Part shown: piece after piece, positions 1,648 through 10,808 of the stretch
Position numbering within the stretch: the stretch's first letter is position 1
How the letters are laid out: every line of letters begins with the position of its first letter
DNA from: Rhodoferax sp.
Lineage (GTDB): Bacteria > Pseudomonadota > Gammaproteobacteria > Burkholderiales > Burkholderiaceae_C
Direction of reading: 5' to 3'
Assembly (NCBI RefSeq): GCF_023700745.1
Contig: NZ_JAMPYG010000002.1
Location: 124,001-188,000, forward strand
Length of the DNA stretch: 64,000 nucleotides
Notes under the pieces: generated by a model
Told to the model about the DNA's origin: nothing
Database searches by the model: none
What the model saw: the letters and a program-made list of their open reading frames with translations, nothing else
Program-made: the position numbers and the translations under genes

Positions 1648-2637
1648 TTAACCATCAAACTGCGGCTGCAGTTGCCGGATGCGGCGCATCGCCATGGCGG
1701 CCGCGGCGGTGCGGGTTTCCACACCCAGTTTGGCAAAAACATGCTCCAGGTGTTTCTTCACGGTCATCGGGCTGGAGCCCACAATGTCGCCGATATCACG
1801 GTTGATCTTGCCCTTGACCACCCAGTACAGCACCTCGGCTTCCTTGGGGGTGAGCTTGAAGCACAGGCCCATGGTCTCGATGACACTTTCGTCGCTGACT
1901 TCCTGCATGATAATGAGCCAGTCGCCACCACCCTCGCTGTCGCCAATTTGCTGATGCAGCCTGAACGTCAGACGTTTCGGGCCGGCTTCCACACTCAGGC
2001 GCGGCGGCTCGACACCGTTCAGGCCCTGATCGACGTGCCGACGCAGCCAGGTCAGCACGGGAAGGGGCGTGGTGGGCGCGTCGGTGCCGTAGTAGCGCAT
2101 CAGCAAGTCACGCGCCAACGAGGTTTGCCACATCAGACGCCCATCGCCCACACGCACCGTGATGCTGGCATAGCCAAAGGCATCGAGCGCGTTGCGGGTC
2201 TGGCGCTTTTCCCGAGCGCCCTGCAGGTGCACGGCCATGCGTGCCAGCACCTCCTTGGGTTTGATCGGTTTGGTCACATAGTCCACGCCACCGGCTTCCA
2301 GCGCAGCCACCAGGTGCTCGGTTTCGGTCAGGCCGGTCATGAAAATGATGGGAATGTGCGCTGTTTTCGGGTCGGCCTTGAGCTGGCGCGCCACCTCAAA
2401 TCCGTCCATGCCGGGCATCATGGCGTCAAGCAGCACCACGTCGGGCAGCGCTTGCGCCGCGCGCTGCAGCGCTGCCGCGCCACTGAGGGCCACCAGCACG
2501 GTGTAGCCCGATTCGTCGAGCGCGTCATGCAGCACCGTCAGGTTGTCGGGCACGTCGTCAACAATCAGCACCACGTCGCTGTTGGCACGGTCCAGCGTGC
2601 GGTCAAACGCCTTGTTTGTTTTATTGCTCATGGTCAA
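1648..2637 (-). CDS. LuxR-type response regulator, partner of the permease-kinase
   Basis: 329 residues. The N-terminal receiver domain (about 20-140) has the acidic pocket (VDD) and phospho-acceptor Asp71 in VVLLDAMMPG. The C-terminal helix-turn-helix (about 260-310) reads LTPKEAEVLYWVVKGK then MTVKKHLEHVFAKLGVETR, typical of the LuxR/FixJ class. The 120-residue middle part is not assigned. Its start codon overlaps the end of the upstream hybrid kinase gene by 17 bp, so the two are translationally coupled and almost certainly form one phosphorelay. The target genes cannot be read from sequence; the divergent urease operon is an obvious candidate, but that is inference. Confidence 0.9.
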   Translation of the reverse strand: MTMSNKTNKAFDRTLDRANSDVVLIVDDVPDNLTVLHDALDESGYTVLVALSGAAALQRAAQALPDVVLLDAMMPGMDGFEVARQLKADPKTAHIPIIFMTGLTETEHLVAALEAGGVDYVTKPIKPKEVLARMAVHLQGAREKRQTRNALDAFGYASITVRVGDGRLMWQTSLARDLLMRYYGTDAPTTPLPVLTWLRRHVDQGLNGVEPPRLSVEAGPKRLTFRLHQQIGDSEGGGDWLIIMQEVSDESVIETMGLCFKLTPKEAEVLYWVVKGKINRDIGDIVGSSPMTVKKHLEHVFAKLGVETRTAAAAMAMRRIRQLQPQFDG

Positions 2638-5600
2638 TGCCGGCCAGTTGCTGGCTCATGGCTTCAAACTGGAACTGGCCGGCCAACGCACGCATGCGGG
2701 CGATAAACAAGGCGCACTCGGGCTGCGCCGCCGCCAGGGCGTCAAGCTGGTTCAGGATGCCGCGGTAAAACCCCAACGTGACCACCTCCTGCAAGGCGTC
2801 CAGTTGGGCCCGGTCCGGGTAAACCAGCGCCAAGGCTGGCTCTGCTTCAGGTGCTTGCAACACGGGCGTGGCGGCCTCCTGCCAGGCCAGACCGAGGCGC
2901 TGGCCCAGCCAGTCCAACAAGTCGGCGTGGCGCACCGGCTTGCAAAAAAAGTCCTCGCCGGGAAGCCCGACCGGGTTGACCAGCCCCTTGTCAAAGGCGT
3001 TGGCCGAGACGATGGCAAGGTGGGCGGCAGGGCGCTGCGTGGCTTGTTCAAGCAGCCGCAGCCGGCGCACGGTCTCCCAGCCGTCGATGCCGGGCATGGC
3101 CAGGTCCATGAACACGGCATGGGGCTGGTAGCCGCTGGCCAGCAGGTCGAGCGCATCGTGGCCGCTGGCCGCGGTGCGCACCTCGAAGCCCAGCGGTTGC
3201 AGCACTTGCACCAACAGTTCCCGGTCGGCTTCTTCGTTGTCCACCACCAGCACCCGCTGGCGCGGCCCGACATAGCTCAAACGCGATTTAACTGACGCGA
3301 CCAGAAGCGCTTCCCGCTGCGCGCCACCACCCCCCGTGGCTAGAAAACTGGTGTGTAACTCGGGCAGGAAGAGCTTGACCTTGAACACTGAGCCCACACC
3401 CGGCTGGCTGCTGACGCTGAGCTCACCCCCCATCAGATCGGTCAGCATCCGGGCAATGGTCAGACCCATGCCGGCGCCGGGCGCACCCAGGCCGGGCGCG
3501 CTGGCCCGGGCGAAGGGCTCAAACACGTGGGCCAGGTCCTGCGCGCTCAAGCCCGGCCCGGTGTCCTCGATCTCGATGTGGGCCATCTCGACGCCGTAGC
3601 GCAGGCGCAGGATCACCTGGCCGCTTGCGGTGAACTTGATGGCGTTGCCCAGCAGGTTGAGCAAAATCTGGCGCACCCGTTTTTCGTCGGCACGCACCAC
3701 GGCAGGCAGCGTGCCCTGCACCTCAAAGACAAAGCGCAAGTCCTTGCGCCCGGCTTCCAGCGCAAACATGTCGGCGAGGTCCTGCATGAAGTCGGCAAAG
3801 GCCAGTGGCCGGGGGCTGAGCGTGAGCCGGCCCGACTCGATGTGCGCCAGGTCCAGCGTGCCTTCGATGAGCGAGAGCAAATGTTCACCGCCGCGTTTGA
3901 TCACAGCCACCGCCTGCTTGCGGTGCGGTGGAATCGACAGGTCTTCACCCATCAGCTGGGCATAGCCCAGAATGCTGTTGAGCGGCGTGCGCAGCTCGTG
4001 GCTGATGGCGCTGATGTAGCGGCTTTTGGCCTGGTTGGCACGTTCTGCGGCCTGCTTGGCCAACTGCAGGGCCGCATCGGTCTGACGGTGCAACCTGATT
4101 TCGCGCAGCAGCAGGCTGGTTTGCCGGTTCGATTCGTCCTGCGCCACCCGCCGGCTCTGGTGTGCCAGCACCACCCACCAGGCCACCAGACCGGCGATCA
4201 GTATCAGTGCGGCATAGGCTTTCAGAAAACCGGCGCGCAGCGCGTCAAGCGCGACCTGCAGCATTTGTGCATCAAAGATGGACTGCACCAGGGCACGCCT
4301 TTCCTGGTGGTAAAGCAAGCCAAATACGGTGGCCAGCAAGGGCGCAATCACCAGCATCAGCAACAGGAAATAGCCCAGGCCCTTGTCCAGGTGTGACCAG
4401 CTGCGCCGGGGCAAAAGCCAGCGCAGCACACCGGTCCACTGCGCGCCCAGGCTGGCGTGGGGTTTGCACAGGTCGCCACAACGGGCGTCGAGGGTGCAAC
4501 AGAGTGAACAAATCGGCCCCTGGTAGGCCGGGCAATGCGCCATGTCAGGGCCTTCGTAGTCGCGCTCGCAGATCACGCAGCGCTGCAGGCGCAGACGCGG
4601 GTAGGCGCCTGCGTCCAGGGCCGCAAGGACCTCGCTCTCCCGCGCCAGGTAGTACTTGCCCCGGGTGGCCAAGGCAATCAGGGGTGACGTGATCAAGGCG
4701 GTAGCCAGCGCGATCAGCGCCGAAAACGCCTGCGCCAGAACACCAAAATAACCCAGATGGGCCGTGATCGACAACACCGACGCCAAGCCCATGGCACCCA
4801 CGCCCACCGGGTTGATGTCGTACAGGTAGGCGCGCTTGAACTCAATGCCTTTGGGGCTCAGGCCCAGGGGCTTGTTGACCACCAGGTCAGCCACTACCGC
4901 CATCATCCAGGCAATGGCGATGTTGGAATACAGCCCGAGCACATCACCCAGGGCGGCAAACACGTTCATTTCCATCAGCATGAAGGCGATCAGCGTGTTG
5001 AACACGACCCACACCACGCGCCCGGGGTGGCTGTGCGTGAGGCGCGAGAAAAAGTTGCTCCAGGCCAGCGAGCCGGCGTAGGCGTTTGTGACATTGATCT
5101 TGATCTGCGACACCACCACAAACAGCGCCGTGGCTGCCACCGCCCAGCCGTAGTGTGGAAACACGTACTCGTAGGCCGCCAGGTACATTTGATTCGGGTC
5201 CACCGCGCGCTCCGGCGGCACCGCGTGGCTGATGGCCAGGTAGGCCAGCAAGGCGCCGCCCAGCATCTTGAGCACGCCCAACACCACCCAGCCCGGTCCG
5301 CCAAGCAGCACGCTGAACCACCAGCTTCGGCGGTTGGCGGCGGTCAGGGCAGGCATGAAGCGCAGGTAGTCAGCCTGCTCGCCCATTTGCGTCATCAGCG
5401 CCACGCCCACGGTTAACGCCGCACCAAACAGGGGCAGACTGAAGCCTTCTGATGACCCTTTGTCACCAAGATAGTGCACCACACCCGCGAACGCCGTGGG
5501 TTCGCGCCACAGCACGAAAGCAAACGGCAGCAGCCACATCACGAGCCACAGCGGCTGGGTCCAGACCTGCAGCCGGCTGATAGTGGAGACCCCGTGCGTG

Positions 5601-6178
5601 ACCAGCGGAATCACCACCAACGCGCAGATCAGATAACCCCAGCGCGGCGGAATATCGAGCGCCAGCTCCAGCGCATAGGCCATCACCGCCGCTTCGAGTG
5701 CAAAAAAGATGAAGGTGAACGAGGCATAAATCAGCGAGGTCAGCGTTGAGCCGATGTAGCCAAAACCGGCCCCCCGGGTGAGCAAATCCATGTCAACACC
5801 GTACTTGGCGGCGTAGATGCTGATGGGCAAACCGGCCAGAAAAATGATCAGCCCGGTCGCCAGGATCGCCCAGAATGCGTTGACAAAACCGTATTGCACC
5901 AGCAGCGTGGCGCCCACTGCCTCCAGAATCAAAAAGGCAGCAGCACCGCCCAGCGCAGTTTGCGCCACACGCCATGGTGACCACTGGCGAAAGCCCTGCG
6001 GCGTGAAGCGCAAGGCATAGTCCTCCAGCGTTTCGCTGGCCACCCAGGCGTTGTAGTCGCGCCGCACCAACGTGATGCGCTGCGACGGAGCGTCTGAGAG
6101 CGTTGAACTGGTTTGAGGAGGGTGTTCTGGAGTCACACCACAACGGTGCAGTTTCCATGCCATGCCATGACAAACCAA
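2621..6178 (-). CDS. NCS1-permease-fused hybrid sensor histidine kinase
   Basis: 1185 residues. About 60-500 form a multi-helix NCS1 (cytosine/purine/allantoin/uracil-type) permease. Residues about 531-570 hold eight cysteines (RCVICERD, AHCP, ICSLCC, ARCGDLC) resembling a metal-binding module. Two more membrane segments follow near 595-655, then a coiled-coil, a HisKA H-box (SHELRTPLN, His near 726), an HATPase domain with DTGPGLS and a receiver (VLVVDNEEADRE; Asp near 1022 in VFMDLAMPG). The last 80 residues are unassigned. Transporter-kinase fusions of this kind (for example CbrA, with an SSS transporter) sense or take up nutrients; the ligand here is unknown. The start is uncertain: no clear ribosome site precedes 6178, and Met6 or GTG15 are alternatives. 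It lies 212 bp from, and divergent to, ureA. Confidence 0.88.
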   Translation of the reverse strand: MVCHGMAWKLHRCGVTPEHPPQTSSTLSDAPSQRITLVRRDYNAWVASETLEDYALRFTPQGFRQWSPWRVAQTALGGAAAFLILEAVGATLLVQYGFVNAFWAILATGLIIFLAGLPISIYAAKYGVDMDLLTRGAGFGYIGSTLTSLIYASFTFIFFALEAAVMAYALELALDIPPRWGYLICALVVIPLVTHGVSTISRLQVWTQPLWLVMWLLPFAFVLWREPTAFAGVVHYLGDKGSSEGFSLPLFGAALTVGVALMTQMGEQADYLRFMPALTAANRRSWWFSVLLGGPGWVVLGVLKMLGGALLAYLAISHAVPPERAVDPNQMYLAAYEYVFPHYGWAVAATALFVVVSQIKINVTNAYAGSLAWSNFFSRLTHSHPGRVVWVVFNTLIAFMLMEMNVFAALGDVLGLYSNIAIAWMMAVVADLVVNKPLGLSPKGIEFKRAYLYDINPVGVGAMGLASVLSITAHLGYFGVLAQAFSALIALATALITSPLIALATRGKYYLARESEVLAALDAGAYPRLRLQRCVICERDYEGPDMAHCPAYQGPICSLCCTLDARCGDLCKPHASLGAQWTGVLRWLLPRRSWSHLDKGLGYFLLLMLVIAPLLATVFGLLYHQERRALVQSIFDAQMLQVALDALRAGFLKAYAALILIAGLVAWWVVLAHQSRRVAQDESNRQTSLLLREIRLHRQTDAALQLAKQAAERANQAKSRYISAISHELRTPLNSILGYAQLMGEDLSIPPHRKQAVAVIKRGGEHLLSLIEGTLDLAHIESGRLTLSPRPLAFADFMQDLADMFALEAGRKDLRFVFEVQGTLPAVVRADEKRVRQILLNLLGNAIKFTASGQVILRLRYGVEMAHIEIEDTGPGLSAQDLAHVFEPFARASAPGLGAPGAGMGLTIARMLTDLMGGELSVSSQPGVGSVFKVKLFLPELHTSFLATGGGGAQREALLVASVKSRLSYVGPRQRVLVVDNEEADRELLVQVLQPLGFEVRTAASGHDALDLLASGYQPHAVFMDLAMPGIDGWETVRRLRLLEQATQRPAAHLAIVSANAFDKGLVNPVGLPGEDFFCKPVRHADLLDWLGQRLGLAWQEAATPVLQAPEAEPALALVYPDRAQLDALQEVVTLGFYRGILNQLDALAAAQPECALFIARMRALAGQFQFEAMSQQLAGIDHEQ

Positions 6179-6287
6179 TGCACTGGGTCCAGCGCGGTGG
6201 GGTGTCTGGGCGGCTGACGATTTCTGGTACCCCAGTATGAGGAGGCCGCCCGGACGTCCCGCCGCGCGGGTTCAAGGCACAAAGTTC

Positions 6288-6303
6288 AGGCACGGCTTTT
6301 GCA
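6288..6303 (+). promoter_or_regulatory. Sigma-54 (RpoN) promoter of the urease operon
   Basis: The sequence AGGCACGGCTTTTGCA matches the sigma-54 consensus TGGCACG-N4-TTGCA at every position except the first T. The invariant GG (6289-6290) and GC (6301-6302) are exactly 12 bp apart. Transcription would begin near 6314, giving a leader of about 77 nt before ureA. Such promoters need an enhancer-binding activator, commonly NtrC for urease; I could not find a convincing NtrC dyad upstream. Confidence 0.8.
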
Positions 6304-6314
6304 TTGCAAGTGAC

Positions 6315-6368
6315 ATGGAACTTACCCCCCGTGTTCGGCCAGCACCTGTGGCCGCACGAGCTAATTAA
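6315..6368 (+). other. Short ORF resembling a second copy of the ureA start
   Basis: ATG GAA CTT ACC CCC CGT encodes MELTPR, matching the usual UreA N-terminus and the true ureA start 76 bp downstream (MELSPR). It continues out of ureA frame for 17 codons to a TAA. It begins at the predicted sigma-54 start point, so it would be almost leaderless. It may be a relic of a partial duplication or an upstream ORF; translation is unproven. Confidence 0.35.
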
Positions 6369-6390
6369 TCAAAGCATTGAGTGAAGCGAA

Positions 6391-6693
6391 ATGGAACTTT
6401 CTCCTCGTGAAAAAGACAAACTCCTGCTGTTCACAGCCGGCCTGCTGGCCGAACGCCGCAAGGCGCGAGGCCTGAAACTCAATTACCCCGAGGCCGTGGC
6501 CCTGATCAGCTGCGCCGTCATGGAAGGCGCGCGCGACGGCCAGACCGTGGCGCAACTCATGAGCTTTGGCCGTACCATCCTGACCCGTACCGACGTCATG
6601 GAAGGCATCGCCGACATGATTCCCGACATCCAGGTGGAGGCCACATTCCCCGACGGCACCAAACTGGTGACGGTCCACCAACCCATTGTTTGA
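6391..6693 (+). CDS. ureA: Urease gamma subunit
   Basis: 100 residues, the normal length for UreA, and collinear with the family throughout ([17 protein letters not shown] at the start, [18 protein letters not shown] at the end). Urease hydrolyses urea to ammonia and carbamate in the cytoplasm; the gamma subunit packs with beta and alpha in the (abc)3 trimer. It is the first gene of the operon, 77 nt after the predicted sigma-54 start point, with a GAG-type ribosome site before the ATG. ureD, which often precedes ureA in related bacteria, is not here. Confidence 0.97.
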
Positions 6694-6708: not shown

Positions 6709-6876
6709 ATGAAAAAAATTCCACTGATGCACGCTGCGCTGCTGTGCGCTCCGGTATGGGCCAACGAGGGGCACGGCATGGGCACCGGCAGCCATTGGCA
6801 CGCCAGCGACGCCCTGGGCTTTGCCATCGCCATCGGGGTTGGACTGGTCCTGTGGGCCGTGTCGAACCGCAAGTGA
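6709..6876 (+). CDS. Small exported or membrane protein between ureA and ureB
   Basis: A 55-codon ORF lies 15 bp after ureA and ends 7 bp before ureB. It begins [18 protein letters not shown], a good short signal peptide, followed by a Gly/His-rich stretch ([12 protein letters not shown]) and one hydrophobic helix ([16 protein letters not shown]) ending in SNRK. Tight spacing on both sides and a coherent protein layout argue that it is translated. The histidines invite a nickel-related guess, but I recognise no family and assign no function. Confidence 0.7.
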
Positions 6877-6883
6877 ACGCACC

Positions 6884-7189
6884 ATGATTCCCGGCGAACT
6901 CCTGACCGACGGCCCCGACCATGTGCTCAACCCGGGCCGGCGTACCCGCACGCTGGTGGTGCTGAACACCTCCGAGCGCCCGATCCAAGTCGGCTCGCAC
7001 TACCACTTTGCCGAAACCAATGGCGCGCTGGGCTTTGACCGGGCCGCCGCGCAAGGCATGCGGCTGAACATTGCATCGGGCTTGGCGGTGCGGTTCGAGC
7101 CCGGACAACAACGCACCGTGGAACTGGTGGCCTATGCGGGGAGTCGCATCGTTTACGGCTTTCGTGGCCTGGTGCAAGGTGCGTTTTAG
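6884..7189 (+). CDS. ureB: Urease beta subunit
   Basis: 101 residues from the ATG at 6884, which gives the standard start MIPGELL; an upstream extension in the same frame to 6821 would overlap the preceding small gene and has no family support. Family motifs include the segment [13 protein letters not shown] and the R/F-rich beta-barrel region [12 protein letters not shown]. It is a structural subunit of the cytoplasmic urease trimer. It sits 7 bp after the small membrane-protein gene and 11 bp before ureC, consistent with one transcript. Confidence 0.96.
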
Positions 7190-7200
7190 AAAGAACAACG

Positions 7201-8972
<1,772 letters not shown>

Positions 8973-8973
<1 letters not shown>

Positions 8974-9470
8974 TGCTGCTGATCTCCAAACTGATACCCC
9001 AAGGCCAGGGCCTGGCCCCGGTGCTGCTCAAGCGCGCCGCCACTGTCGAGCTGGACTGGGACCTGCGGCAGAAAAGCCGGTTCGAAGCCAGCGATACCGT
9101 GGGGCGACAGATAGGCATCTTTCTGGCGCGCGGCACCGTGCTGCGCGGTGGCGACGTGCTGGTGGCCGAAGATGGCTCATTGATCAGGGTCATTGCAGCC
9201 CCTCAATCCGTGCTGCGCATCACACCTTGCAGCACACATGGCTCCGGCTTCGACCTGATCCGTGCCGCCTACCATCTGGGCAACCGCCACGTTCCCATCG
9301 AGCTCAAGCCCGACCACCTCAAGATCGAGCCCGACCATGTGCTGGCCGACATGTTGCGCGCCATGCACCTGACTGTGGTGGAAGTCAATGAGGCCTTTGA
9401 GCCCGAAAGCGGCGCCTATGCCAGCGGCGGCCATTCGCATGGGCATGACGACGATCACCACCATGCATGA
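8973..9470 (+). CDS. ureE: Urease accessory nickel metallochaperone UreE
   Basis: 165 residues from the ATG that overlaps the ureC stop (TGATG); a longer frame reaching back into ureC is rejected. It has the N-terminal peptide-binding domain and the C-terminal metal domain, including the conserved YHLGNRHVP segment, and ends in a His/Asp-rich nickel-binding tail ([11 protein letters not shown]). UreE delivers Ni2+ to the UreG-containing activation complex. Its 3' end overlaps the ureF start by 8 bp. Confidence 0.96.
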
Positions 9471-10140
9471 CACCAGCCTGCTGCAACTCATGTGGCTAGC
9501 CTCGCCGGCCTTGCCAATCGGCGGCTTTTCCTACTCGGAAGGCCTGGAGGCAGCGGTGGAGTCGGCCCGTGTCACGACAGAAGCTGAAGCCGCGGCCTGG
9601 CTGTTGGACCAGCTGGAACTGAACCTGGCGCGCTGCGATCTGGCGGTAGTGGCACAAGCGATGCCTGCCTGGCAAGCCGCCGACGCAACCCGCATTACCG
9701 CCCTCAACGCCTGGGTGCTGCAGACGCGCGAAAGCGCCGAACTGCGCGCGCAGACCGAGCAAATGGGGCGTTCCCTGCTGGAATGGCTGCGCAACCACAC
9801 CACGGCAACGCCGGCGCAAATCGGCCTGCTGGCCGAGCTGCAGCCCACTTACCCGCTGGCCTTTGCGCTGGCGGCCAGCGCCACCGGCGCACCCGTGCGC
9901 GATTGCCTGCTGGCCTATGCCTTTGGCTGGGCCGAGAACATGGTGCAAGCCGCGATCAAATCGGTGCCGCTGGGCCAAAGCGCCGGGCAGCGCATTTTGT
10001 CCGCATTGACGGCAGCCATTCCTGCGGCCATCGGCCATGCCCTGTCGGTGCCTGACCACAATCGCCAGGCTTTTTCCCCCATGCTGGCCATTTTGAGTGC
10101 CCAGCACGAAGTCCAATACTCCCGTCTTTTTCGTTCCTGA
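9463..10140 (+). CDS. ureF: Urease accessory protein UreF
   Basis: 225 residues from ATG 9463 ([20 protein letters not shown]), the start that matches the family N-terminus; ATG 9445 would add six residues. The hallmark [10 protein letters not shown] follows. UreF is an all-helical protein that links UreD to the UreG GTPase in the activation complex and gates nickel transfer. The start lies inside the last codons of ureE (8-bp overlap), which suggests translational coupling, and ureG follows 8 bp after the stop. Confidence 0.95.
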
Positions 10141-10148
10141 GCCACACC

Positions 10149-10808
10149 ATGAACCCACTGCATCACATCAAGCACCGCACCAAACCCCTACCCCCATTGC
10201 GCGTGGGCATCGGCGGGCCGGTGGGCTCCGGCAAAACCACGCTGCTGGAAATGCTGTGCAAGGCCATGCGCGACCAGTACGACCTGGTGGCCATCACCAA
10301 CGACATCTACACCAAGGAAGACCAGCGCCTGTTGACCGTGAGCGGCGCCCTGCCCGCCGAGCGCATCATGGGCGTGGAGACCGGCGGCTGCCCGCACACC
10401 GCCATCCGGGAAGACGCATCGATCAACCTGGAAGCCATCGACCGGATGCTGGTGGATTTTCCGAATGCCGACATCGTGTTCATCGAAAGCGGCGGCGACA
10501 ACCTGGCCGCCACCTTCAGCCCCGAACTCTCCGACCTGACGATCTACGTGATCGACGTGGCCGCCGGCGAAAAAATCCCGCGCAAGGGCGGCCCCGGCAT
10601 CACCAAGAGCGACTTGTTTGTCATCAACAAAACCGACCTGGCCCCCTATGTGGGCGCGAATCTGGACGTGATGGCGTTAGATACCACACGCATGCGCAGC
10701 ACGCCCAAGGGGCTCAAGCCCTTTGTCATGACCAACCTGAAAACGCTGGACGGCCTGGTGCAGGTGGTGGCGTTTATTGAGCAAAAAGGCATGCTGGGAG
10801 ACGTGTGA
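10149..10808 (+). CDS. ureG: Urease accessory GTPase UreG
   Basis: 219 residues. The P-loop GPVGSGKT spans residues 23-30, followed by the switch and metal-binding motifs typical of UreG, including TGGCPHTA (the CPH metal site), ESGGDN and NKTDLAP. GTP hydrolysis by UreG drives nickel insertion and lysine carbamylation in urease. The N-terminus has only a few histidines rather than the long His-rich extension seen in some species, which agrees with UreE carrying the nickel-storage tail. It is the last gene of the operon; no ureD or urea transporter follows. Confidence 0.97.

Follow-up and report, generated by a model that had tools for sequence, protein, structure and literature searches.

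Transporter–histidine kinase fusions that regulate nutrient use have been described in CbrA and CrbS, kinases of the SLC5/STAC type from Pseudomonas and Vibrio, and CbrA binds and transports L-histidine (PMC7096432 and PMC13022988 for the fusions; PMC7096432 for L-histidine). Here we analyse a kinase of comparable build in a 64,000-nucleotide stretch of Rhodoferax sp. DNA (the window; assembly GCF_023700745.1, contig NZ_JAMPYG010000002.1, positions 124,001 to 188,000 of the forward strand), in which one open reading frame (ORF) joins a permease half to a hybrid histidine kinase, is followed by a LuxR-type regulator gene and stands head to head with a urease operon. Like CbrA and CrbS, the protein fuses a complete transporter domain to a histidine kinase that probably serves nutrient use. 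It differs from them in its transporter domain, most likely NCS1 rather than SLC5, in a Cys-rich module and transmembrane hairpin in place of STAC, in its LuxR-type regulator and in its urea/amide gene context. We propose that it is probably a receptor kinase that derives from a transporter and responds to urea or to a short amide close to it, and that the kinase–regulator pair controls uptake; the ligand and the direction of the response are drawn from gene context.

No transporter-type sensor for the short-chain amide/urea ABC system was found in the open-licence literature searched. The 'UTS' urea transport cluster of Klebsiella CG307 consists of UrtABC and formamidase (PMC13060141, a 2026 preprint), and its text has no match for 'sensor' or 'histidine kinase'. 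The available parts of a formamide review (PMC10781810) have no match for sensor, permease or two-component, and those of a paper on Acinetobacter lwoffii urease operons (PMC8472584) have none for permease. Among the open-licence papers listed by the searches, none came up that describes an NCS1–kinase, a kinase of this type responding to urea, or urea transport by an NCS1 protein.

Architecture of the locus

The features of the locus, with the evidence for each, are as follows.

2621..6178, minus strand: NCS1-permease hybrid histidine kinase ORF, 1,185 amino acids from the listed start TTG 6178 (probably too early)
4649..6061, minus strand: NCS1-fold permease domain, residues about 40–510 (AlphaFold2 model, Foldseek, hhalign)
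4463..4579, minus strand: Cys-rich module C534xxC..C549P..C557SLCC..C567xDxC571K (alignments)
4109..4408, minus strand: two long helices, a transmembrane hairpin into the kinase, residues about 591–690 (model secondary structure)
3830..4030, minus strand: HisKA, residues 717–783 (Pfam)
3365..3688, minus strand: HATPase_c, residues 831–938 (Pfam)
2912..3253, minus strand: REC, the kinase receiver, residues 976–1089 (Pfam)
1648..2637, minus strand: response regulator, REC and LuxR/GerE, likely start ATG 2631
6391..6693, plus strand: ureA (Pfam)
6821..7189, plus strand: ureB (Pfam)
7201..8973, plus strand: ureC (Pfam)
8922..10808, plus strand: ureE, ureF and ureG (Pfam)
6147..6162, minus strand: sigma-54 promoter of the kinase gene, TGGCATGGAAACTGCA (motif with at most 2 mismatches, conserved)
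6288..6303, plus strand: sigma-54 promoter of ureA, AGGCACGGCTTTTGCA (motif with at most 2 mismatches, conserved)

An earlier reading of the sequence alone (the sequence-only reading) had described a permease, HisKA, HATPase and a receiver in one protein, translationally coupled to a LuxR-type regulator, and both descriptions held. Pfam found HisKA, HATPase_c and a receiver in the 2621–6178(−) ORF, a hybrid kinase, and REC with GerE in the 1648–2637(−) ORF, a LuxR/NarL-type regulator. The permease fold was recovered by modelling. The regulator start, TTG 2637 or ATG 2631, overlaps the kinase stop, which ends at 2621. The kinase itself probably starts further in than TTG 6178, perhaps at GTG 6136 or TTG/GTG 6070/6067, because the conserved sigma-54 promoter at 6147–6162(−) falls inside the longer reading. 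Among the named loci, which are the best 80 of 569 relatives from a scan of named genomes, a relative of the regulator lies downstream of the kinase in 74; four are cut off and two (L100 and L119) lack one in that place. The nearest tree relative of the window kinase is a sequence from a Rhodoferax metagenome-assembled genome (MAG).

The permease half is most likely a divergent NCS1 protein

The sequence-only reading took the permease half to be NCS1-type. Direct sequence searches did not bear this out. Pfam found no family at E ≤ 10 in residues 1–699 of the fused protein, and hence no PF02133, SLC5 domain or STAC linker there; PDB sequence and NCBIfam searches with the fused protein gave no NCS1 assignment, and a PDB sequence search with its free, stand-alone relatives returned chance matches only. 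Support came instead from a structural model, a profile–profile match and the stand-alone relatives. An AlphaFold2 model of the permease half, built from 37 aligned sequences (predicted local distance difference test, pLDDT, 76.9; predicted template modelling score, pTM, 0.77), was compared with the PDB by Foldseek. The first five ranks were Mhp1 (2jln, 4d1a, 2x79) and CodB (7qoa, two chains), at template modelling scores (TMt) of 0.70–0.79, and Nramp, SLC5 and LeuT structures ranked below them. The predicted model thus has the NCS1 (LeuT-type) fold. The likeness to Mhp1 and CodB is one of fold; the protein differs from them in sequence (16–17% identity), in its kinase fusion and in a urea/short-amide context, as against hydantoins or nucleobases.

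In hhalign, a profile of 13 relatives matched one built from 10 PF02133-detected proteins with a probability of 94.4% over 382 columns. Stand-alone relatives are 43–54% identical to the fused permease half, and of the three scanned against PF02133 (cut-off 23.5 bits), L216 at 31.9 bits (519 of its 540 amino acids scanned) and the distant L214 at 36.8 bits pass, and L215 fails. Together, these data suggest that the permease half is most likely a divergent NCS1 protein.

Most fused kinases lie beside urea and amide genes

The sequence-only reading had called an NCS1 input uncommon, but in the window's family the fusion is not. Matches were present in 114 of 200 genomes of this family. Four of these genomes (G029, G065, G176 and G188) have weak matches only, which lie in frames of 465–494 amino acids, share about 25% identity with the free permease and resemble other NCS1 proteins that are not fused. 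With free permeases, fragments and weak matches included, relatives occurred in 18/369 class genomes at E ≤ 1e-10 and in 54/398 phylum genomes at E ≤ 1e-5, and of the 524 plasmid records in which the fused half has a relative, 342 are from Klebsiella. The fused forms fall by identity into group A (at least 61%), group B (54–59%) and group C (48–51%), the last of which is shorter and has a different kinase part.

We tallied ureC on the opposite strand within 8 kb of each kinase, not distinguishing sides, including fragments and counting only the family matches listed. Among these, 82 of 98 group A matches had such a ureC. For the other 16, ureC lay 8–20 kb away in two, more than 20 kb away in four and on another contig in eight, and the remaining two belong to genomes without a ureC position on record. 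The corresponding counts were 0/40 for group B, which had one ureC on the same strand within 8 kb and nine at 8–20 kb, and 0/6 for group C. One genome has a group A and a group B kinase some 5 kb from each other, each no more than 19 kb from ureC (L044 and G145:C12). The 80 named loci comprise 54 that face urease, four with less than 3 kb of upstream sequence and 22 that do not face urease, of which three have ure genes elsewhere in the stretch.

Group B kinases adjoin a different operon, made up of urtABCDE-like genes, formamidase and FmdB, often with an aliphatic amidase; the annotated example L051 carries UrtA–E, formamidase, an FmdB-like protein and aliphatic amidase. This is the short-chain amide/urea ABC system (urt-like, fmdA, fmdB, amiE). 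Within the family, 13 of 14 group B kinases face a urt-like operon; the remaining stretch (L043) breaks off within the kinase. Outside the family, 13 of 17 fused loci face urt-like genes plus formamidase; L209 and L210 have urt matches only, and two others are group C with formamidase. In L264 (8897–12342) the permease part is in two pieces about 1.5 kb apart, as if interrupted, and the split kinase adjoins matches to urtB–E, fmdA, fmdB and amiE.

All eight group C loci (8/8) have formamidase within 9 kb. In the two group C loci that were annotated, L053 (6748–8028, minus strand) and L054 (11670–13001, plus strand), EAL-type genes stand beside the kinases and also match a receiver–EAL family, so an amide signal may reach cyclic di-GMP (c-di-GMP). 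Genes with weak LuxR-family matches diverge from the group C kinases in L053 (10850–12148) and L057 (10814–12028). Overall, the relatives are largely not scattered beside unrelated operons, an outcome that would have spoken against a nitrogen role: most lie beside urease, urt or formamidase/amidase genes.

These neighbour tallies rest on a tblastn panel of urea and amide genes only, which therefore could not show purine genes. Clustering the flanking ORFs across the 80 named loci, together with the window's own locus, independently of the panel put kinase, regulator, ure and urt families first; the first other flank family was HupE/UreJ, in 14 loci. In a limited look, no purine-catabolic gene appeared among 30 flank proteins, six annotated stretches and the ten frequent non-panel flank families. 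These results bear on the possibility that the sensor responds to a purine breakdown product, a nucleobase or allantoin, as the described NCS1 transporters would suggest. The NCS1 fold and the names that databases give some free sisters (allantoin or cytosine permease) favour it; given the flanks, we consider it highly improbable. The sequence-only reading had left open a purine breakdown product or urea, and context points to urea or a related compound.

A palindrome marks the uptake operons

The sigma-54 site before ureA (AGGCACGGCTTTTGCA), noted in the sequence-only reading, proved real: with at most 2 mismatches a site occurs in 38 of 53 loci including the window, where shuffles predict about 0.5, and a kinase-strand site occurs in 37/53 (about 0.5 in shuffles). 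In group B such sites were found on the kinase strand in 9 of 26 regions and on the urtA strand in none (0/26). The urease operon and the kinase gene, being under sigma-54 promoters, would therefore respond to general nitrogen limitation, which acts via NtrC. An Rfam match to RF02514 (5′ ureB small RNA; 93 bits), a family we take to be antisense to a urease gene, lies at 7362–7675(−) of the window, antisense within ureC; it may be just conserved urease coding sequence.

Of 27 intergenic regions in group B, 22 share a second element, the palindrome TACG-N8-CGTA; the highest count for any gapped word in a single shuffle was no more than 6. It also stands before the free-permease operons described below (5/6 exact, one with 1 mismatch) and before urtA in 32 of 36 loci, against 0.14 in shuffles, with L117, L141, L144 and L145 as the misses; the UrtA proteins of these loci are 47–100% identical to that of the window's genome. 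The palindrome mostly lies about 80–150 bp upstream of the uptake operon. The window's genome, of 3.2 Mb, has nine copies. One of these (C14:120769–120784) stands 104 bp upstream of urtA, at a distance of about 3.2 kb from the left edge of the window, and the 64-kb window itself has no exact copy. Because the uptake operon carries this conserved palindrome, it is the likely target of the regulator. On the one such Klebsiella plasmid stretch that was examined (L380), which has a relative of this family, a fused kinase stands head to head with urtABCDE plus formamidase, with the palindrome between them. This cluster resembles the CG307 UTS, with the kinase and palindrome in addition, and we take the two to be the same.

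It is unlikely that the regulator directly controls the facing urease operon. The head-to-head arrangement of 82/98 group A matches would fit such control, as would the near-palindromes, deviating by no more than 1 mismatch, that 9 of 50 urease–kinase regions contain (about 2.4 expected). However, the exact palindrome was found in none of those 50 regions and instead stands before urtA, and ureA has its sigma-54 sites. LuxR-type regulators have no AAA+ domain, which sigma-54 requires, and do not on their own activate a sigma-54 promoter. Control of nitrogen scavenging, as the sequence-only reading had it, therefore stands in altered form, with the uptake operon rather than ureA as the likely target.

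We compared palindrome and kinase across genomes in a region of mostly 700 bp before urtA, using 110 of 140 candidate genomes of the same 200-genome set (group A genomes chosen by rank, and all kinase-less ones except the partial G008). Of the 62 genomes with a group A kinase, 61 carried the palindrome (the sole miss, G068, had 108 bp available), as did 6 of the 44 in which no kinase matched (Fisher 2.8e-21) and 3/4 with group B or C only. The six kinase-less genomes that keep it mean that another regulator may use the palindrome, or that a kinase was missed. That the palindrome serves such a regulator, with the kinase simply co-occurring with urea genes, seems distinctly unlikely to us, since the palindrome is nearly constant in kinase genomes and accompanies the kinase to three operons with different transporters.

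Stand-alone sister permeases

Free relatives of the permease half occur in operons of the same kinds. In one genus of the window's class, a free permease follows ureABCEFG in 7/7 loci (L216, L245–L250), and in L216 it is followed by what is presumably a nickel-transporter-like gene, read from the sequence by its motif. In six loci (L215, L251–L255), a free permease gene is oriented divergently from a fused kinase gene and stands first in a formamidase–FmdB–amidase operon, occupying the place that the ABC transporter takes elsewhere. Three of these (L251–L253) come from the genus of the seven urease-linked loci, and L263, from another species of that genus, has the ABC operon in the free permease's place. 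The L256 free permease has no panel neighbour.

Further afield, a free sister follows ureG in Klebsiella pneumoniae CP125156.1 (L381), labelled cytosine permease; one lies ahead of ureEFG..DABC in Acinetobacter johnsonii, labelled allantoin permease; and one in Methylovirgula sp. HY1 adjoins kinase, regulator, formamidase and amidase genes, labelled hypothetical protein. The CP125156.1 record, filed as a plasmid in PLSDB, is 5.37 Mb with rpoD, rpsU and tsaD and looks like a chromosome. The available part of PMC12625717 places a cytosine permease solely beside biuret/purine-type genes. The sisters, some bearing cytosine or allantoin permease labels, are probably overlooked urea and amide transporters, judging from sequence and context.

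We built a tree of 112 rows, with fused urease rows randomly thinned to 28 plus the window and with L128 and L146 (contig ends) and the partial L250 omitted. The 98 fused rows formed one group (Shimodaira–Hasegawa-like approximate likelihood ratio test, SH-aLRT, 100), and a single change accounts for the step from free to fused. Among the free forms, those of urease type and those of amide type were each one group; long branches here make the root uncertain. We infer that the sensor arose from a urea/amide transporter like these sisters.

Residues that distinguish fused from free forms

Comparing 13 free with 98 fused sequences, we found six positions that differ near-completely: 81, 82, 85, 163, 200 and 368. 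Position 85 is Asp in 12/13 free and Leu in 95/98 fused forms. Positions 81, 82 and 85 lie at a break between model helices 68–80 and 83–96, which we take to be the unwound middle of the predicted first transmembrane segment; 163 adjoins the invariant E162, and 368 the invariant KIN-x-x-N-x-Y stretch. At positions 81, 163 and 368 some fused rows retain the free-form letter, and the window's own kinase carries Ala at 81. Free and fused forms alike retain E162, Q264, the GEQ-x-D stretch, N362 and N365. This pattern suggests that substrate binding was kept and coupling changed, and that the fused half may no longer transport. The sequence-only reading allowed the permease half to be sensor, transporter or both; a sensor-only role appears somewhat likelier, because a few near-fixed sites, including the Asp-to-Leu change, differ from the transporter-like sisters. 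CbrA, the best-studied fusion that we met, is nevertheless able to transport (PMC7096432).

The Cys-rich module has eight Cys conserved across 13 aligned relatives, and C534, C537, C557 and C560 are common to fused kinases and stand-alone permeases; the module therefore came with the permease. It might be argued that the module senses nickel or redox state and that the permease half is a membrane anchor, as nickel is required by urease and urease operons include HupE/UreJ genes. We find this very improbable, for group B and C kinases adjoin formamidase or amidase rather than urease, four of the Cys belong to the permease family at large, and residues of the membrane core are as invariant as the Cys.

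Proposed mechanism

In the receptor-kinase reading, the NCS1-fold half would bind urea or a short amide, and the signal would be relayed through the Cys-rich module and transmembrane hairpin to HisKA/HATPase; phosphotransfer would then carry it to the LuxR-type regulator. This regulator would recognise TACG-N8-CGTA ahead of the uptake operon, which is urtABCDE at urease-type loci and the urt-like/fmdA/amiE operon at amide-type loci. To the general nitrogen control that acts on the kinase gene and the urease operon, the kinase would add a substrate-specific signal. The free sisters of the permease half would act as urea/amide transporters, and the sensor would derive from one such transporter.

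Several points weigh against this reading. The 22 named loci that do not face urease are largely from Rhodocyclales, Methylophilaceae and Oxalobacteraceae, some Rhodocyclales loci adjoin other signalling genes, and 16 of 117 fused rows (before thinning) lack a nearby panel gene, some at contig ends. The exact palindrome is absent from the urease–kinase regions. The Fisher test ignores kinship, four of the 44 kinase-less upstream regions are short (202–536 bp), and kinase-less G027, G062, G112, G174, G179 and G193 keep the palindrome. A hybrid receiver normally needs a phosphotransfer partner before the regulator, and one was sought only by the Pfam scan of the kinase.

Individual loci show other arrangements. 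In a Zoogloea MAG (L114, 7072–10013), genes for a PilS-like kinase and a sigma-54 activator directly precede the permease–kinase on the same strand, and L118 has ORFs of similar size in that place. In an Oxalobacteraceae locus (L145, 5569–13423) the kinase is near a GlnD-like gene and a urt operon, not urease; L141 (Rugamonas) resembles it by ORF similarity.

A broader reading, which we offer tentatively and think slightly likelier to fail than to hold, is that this NCS1 branch carries urea and short amides, not ring compounds, and includes the 'cytosine permease' after ureG in the Klebsiella pneumoniae record. A single ancient fusion would then have given non-transporting receptor kinases, marked by loss of the Asp in the first transmembrane segment, that command urea/amide uptake across several proteobacterial classes via one palindrome.

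Implications

The described transporter–kinase fusions that we met in papers are of the SLC5 type, and an NCS1-based class would be distinct from them. With a large NCS1 class, and with transporter-like sisters present in the same operons, the change from transporter to receptor could be compared directly. In the bacteria concerned, the use of urea is usually attributed to general nitrogen control; the proposed kinases would supply them with a specific urea/amide sensor. They would also correct the 'cytosine/allantoin permease' labels beside urease genes, and would offer a small urea- or amide-responsive switch.

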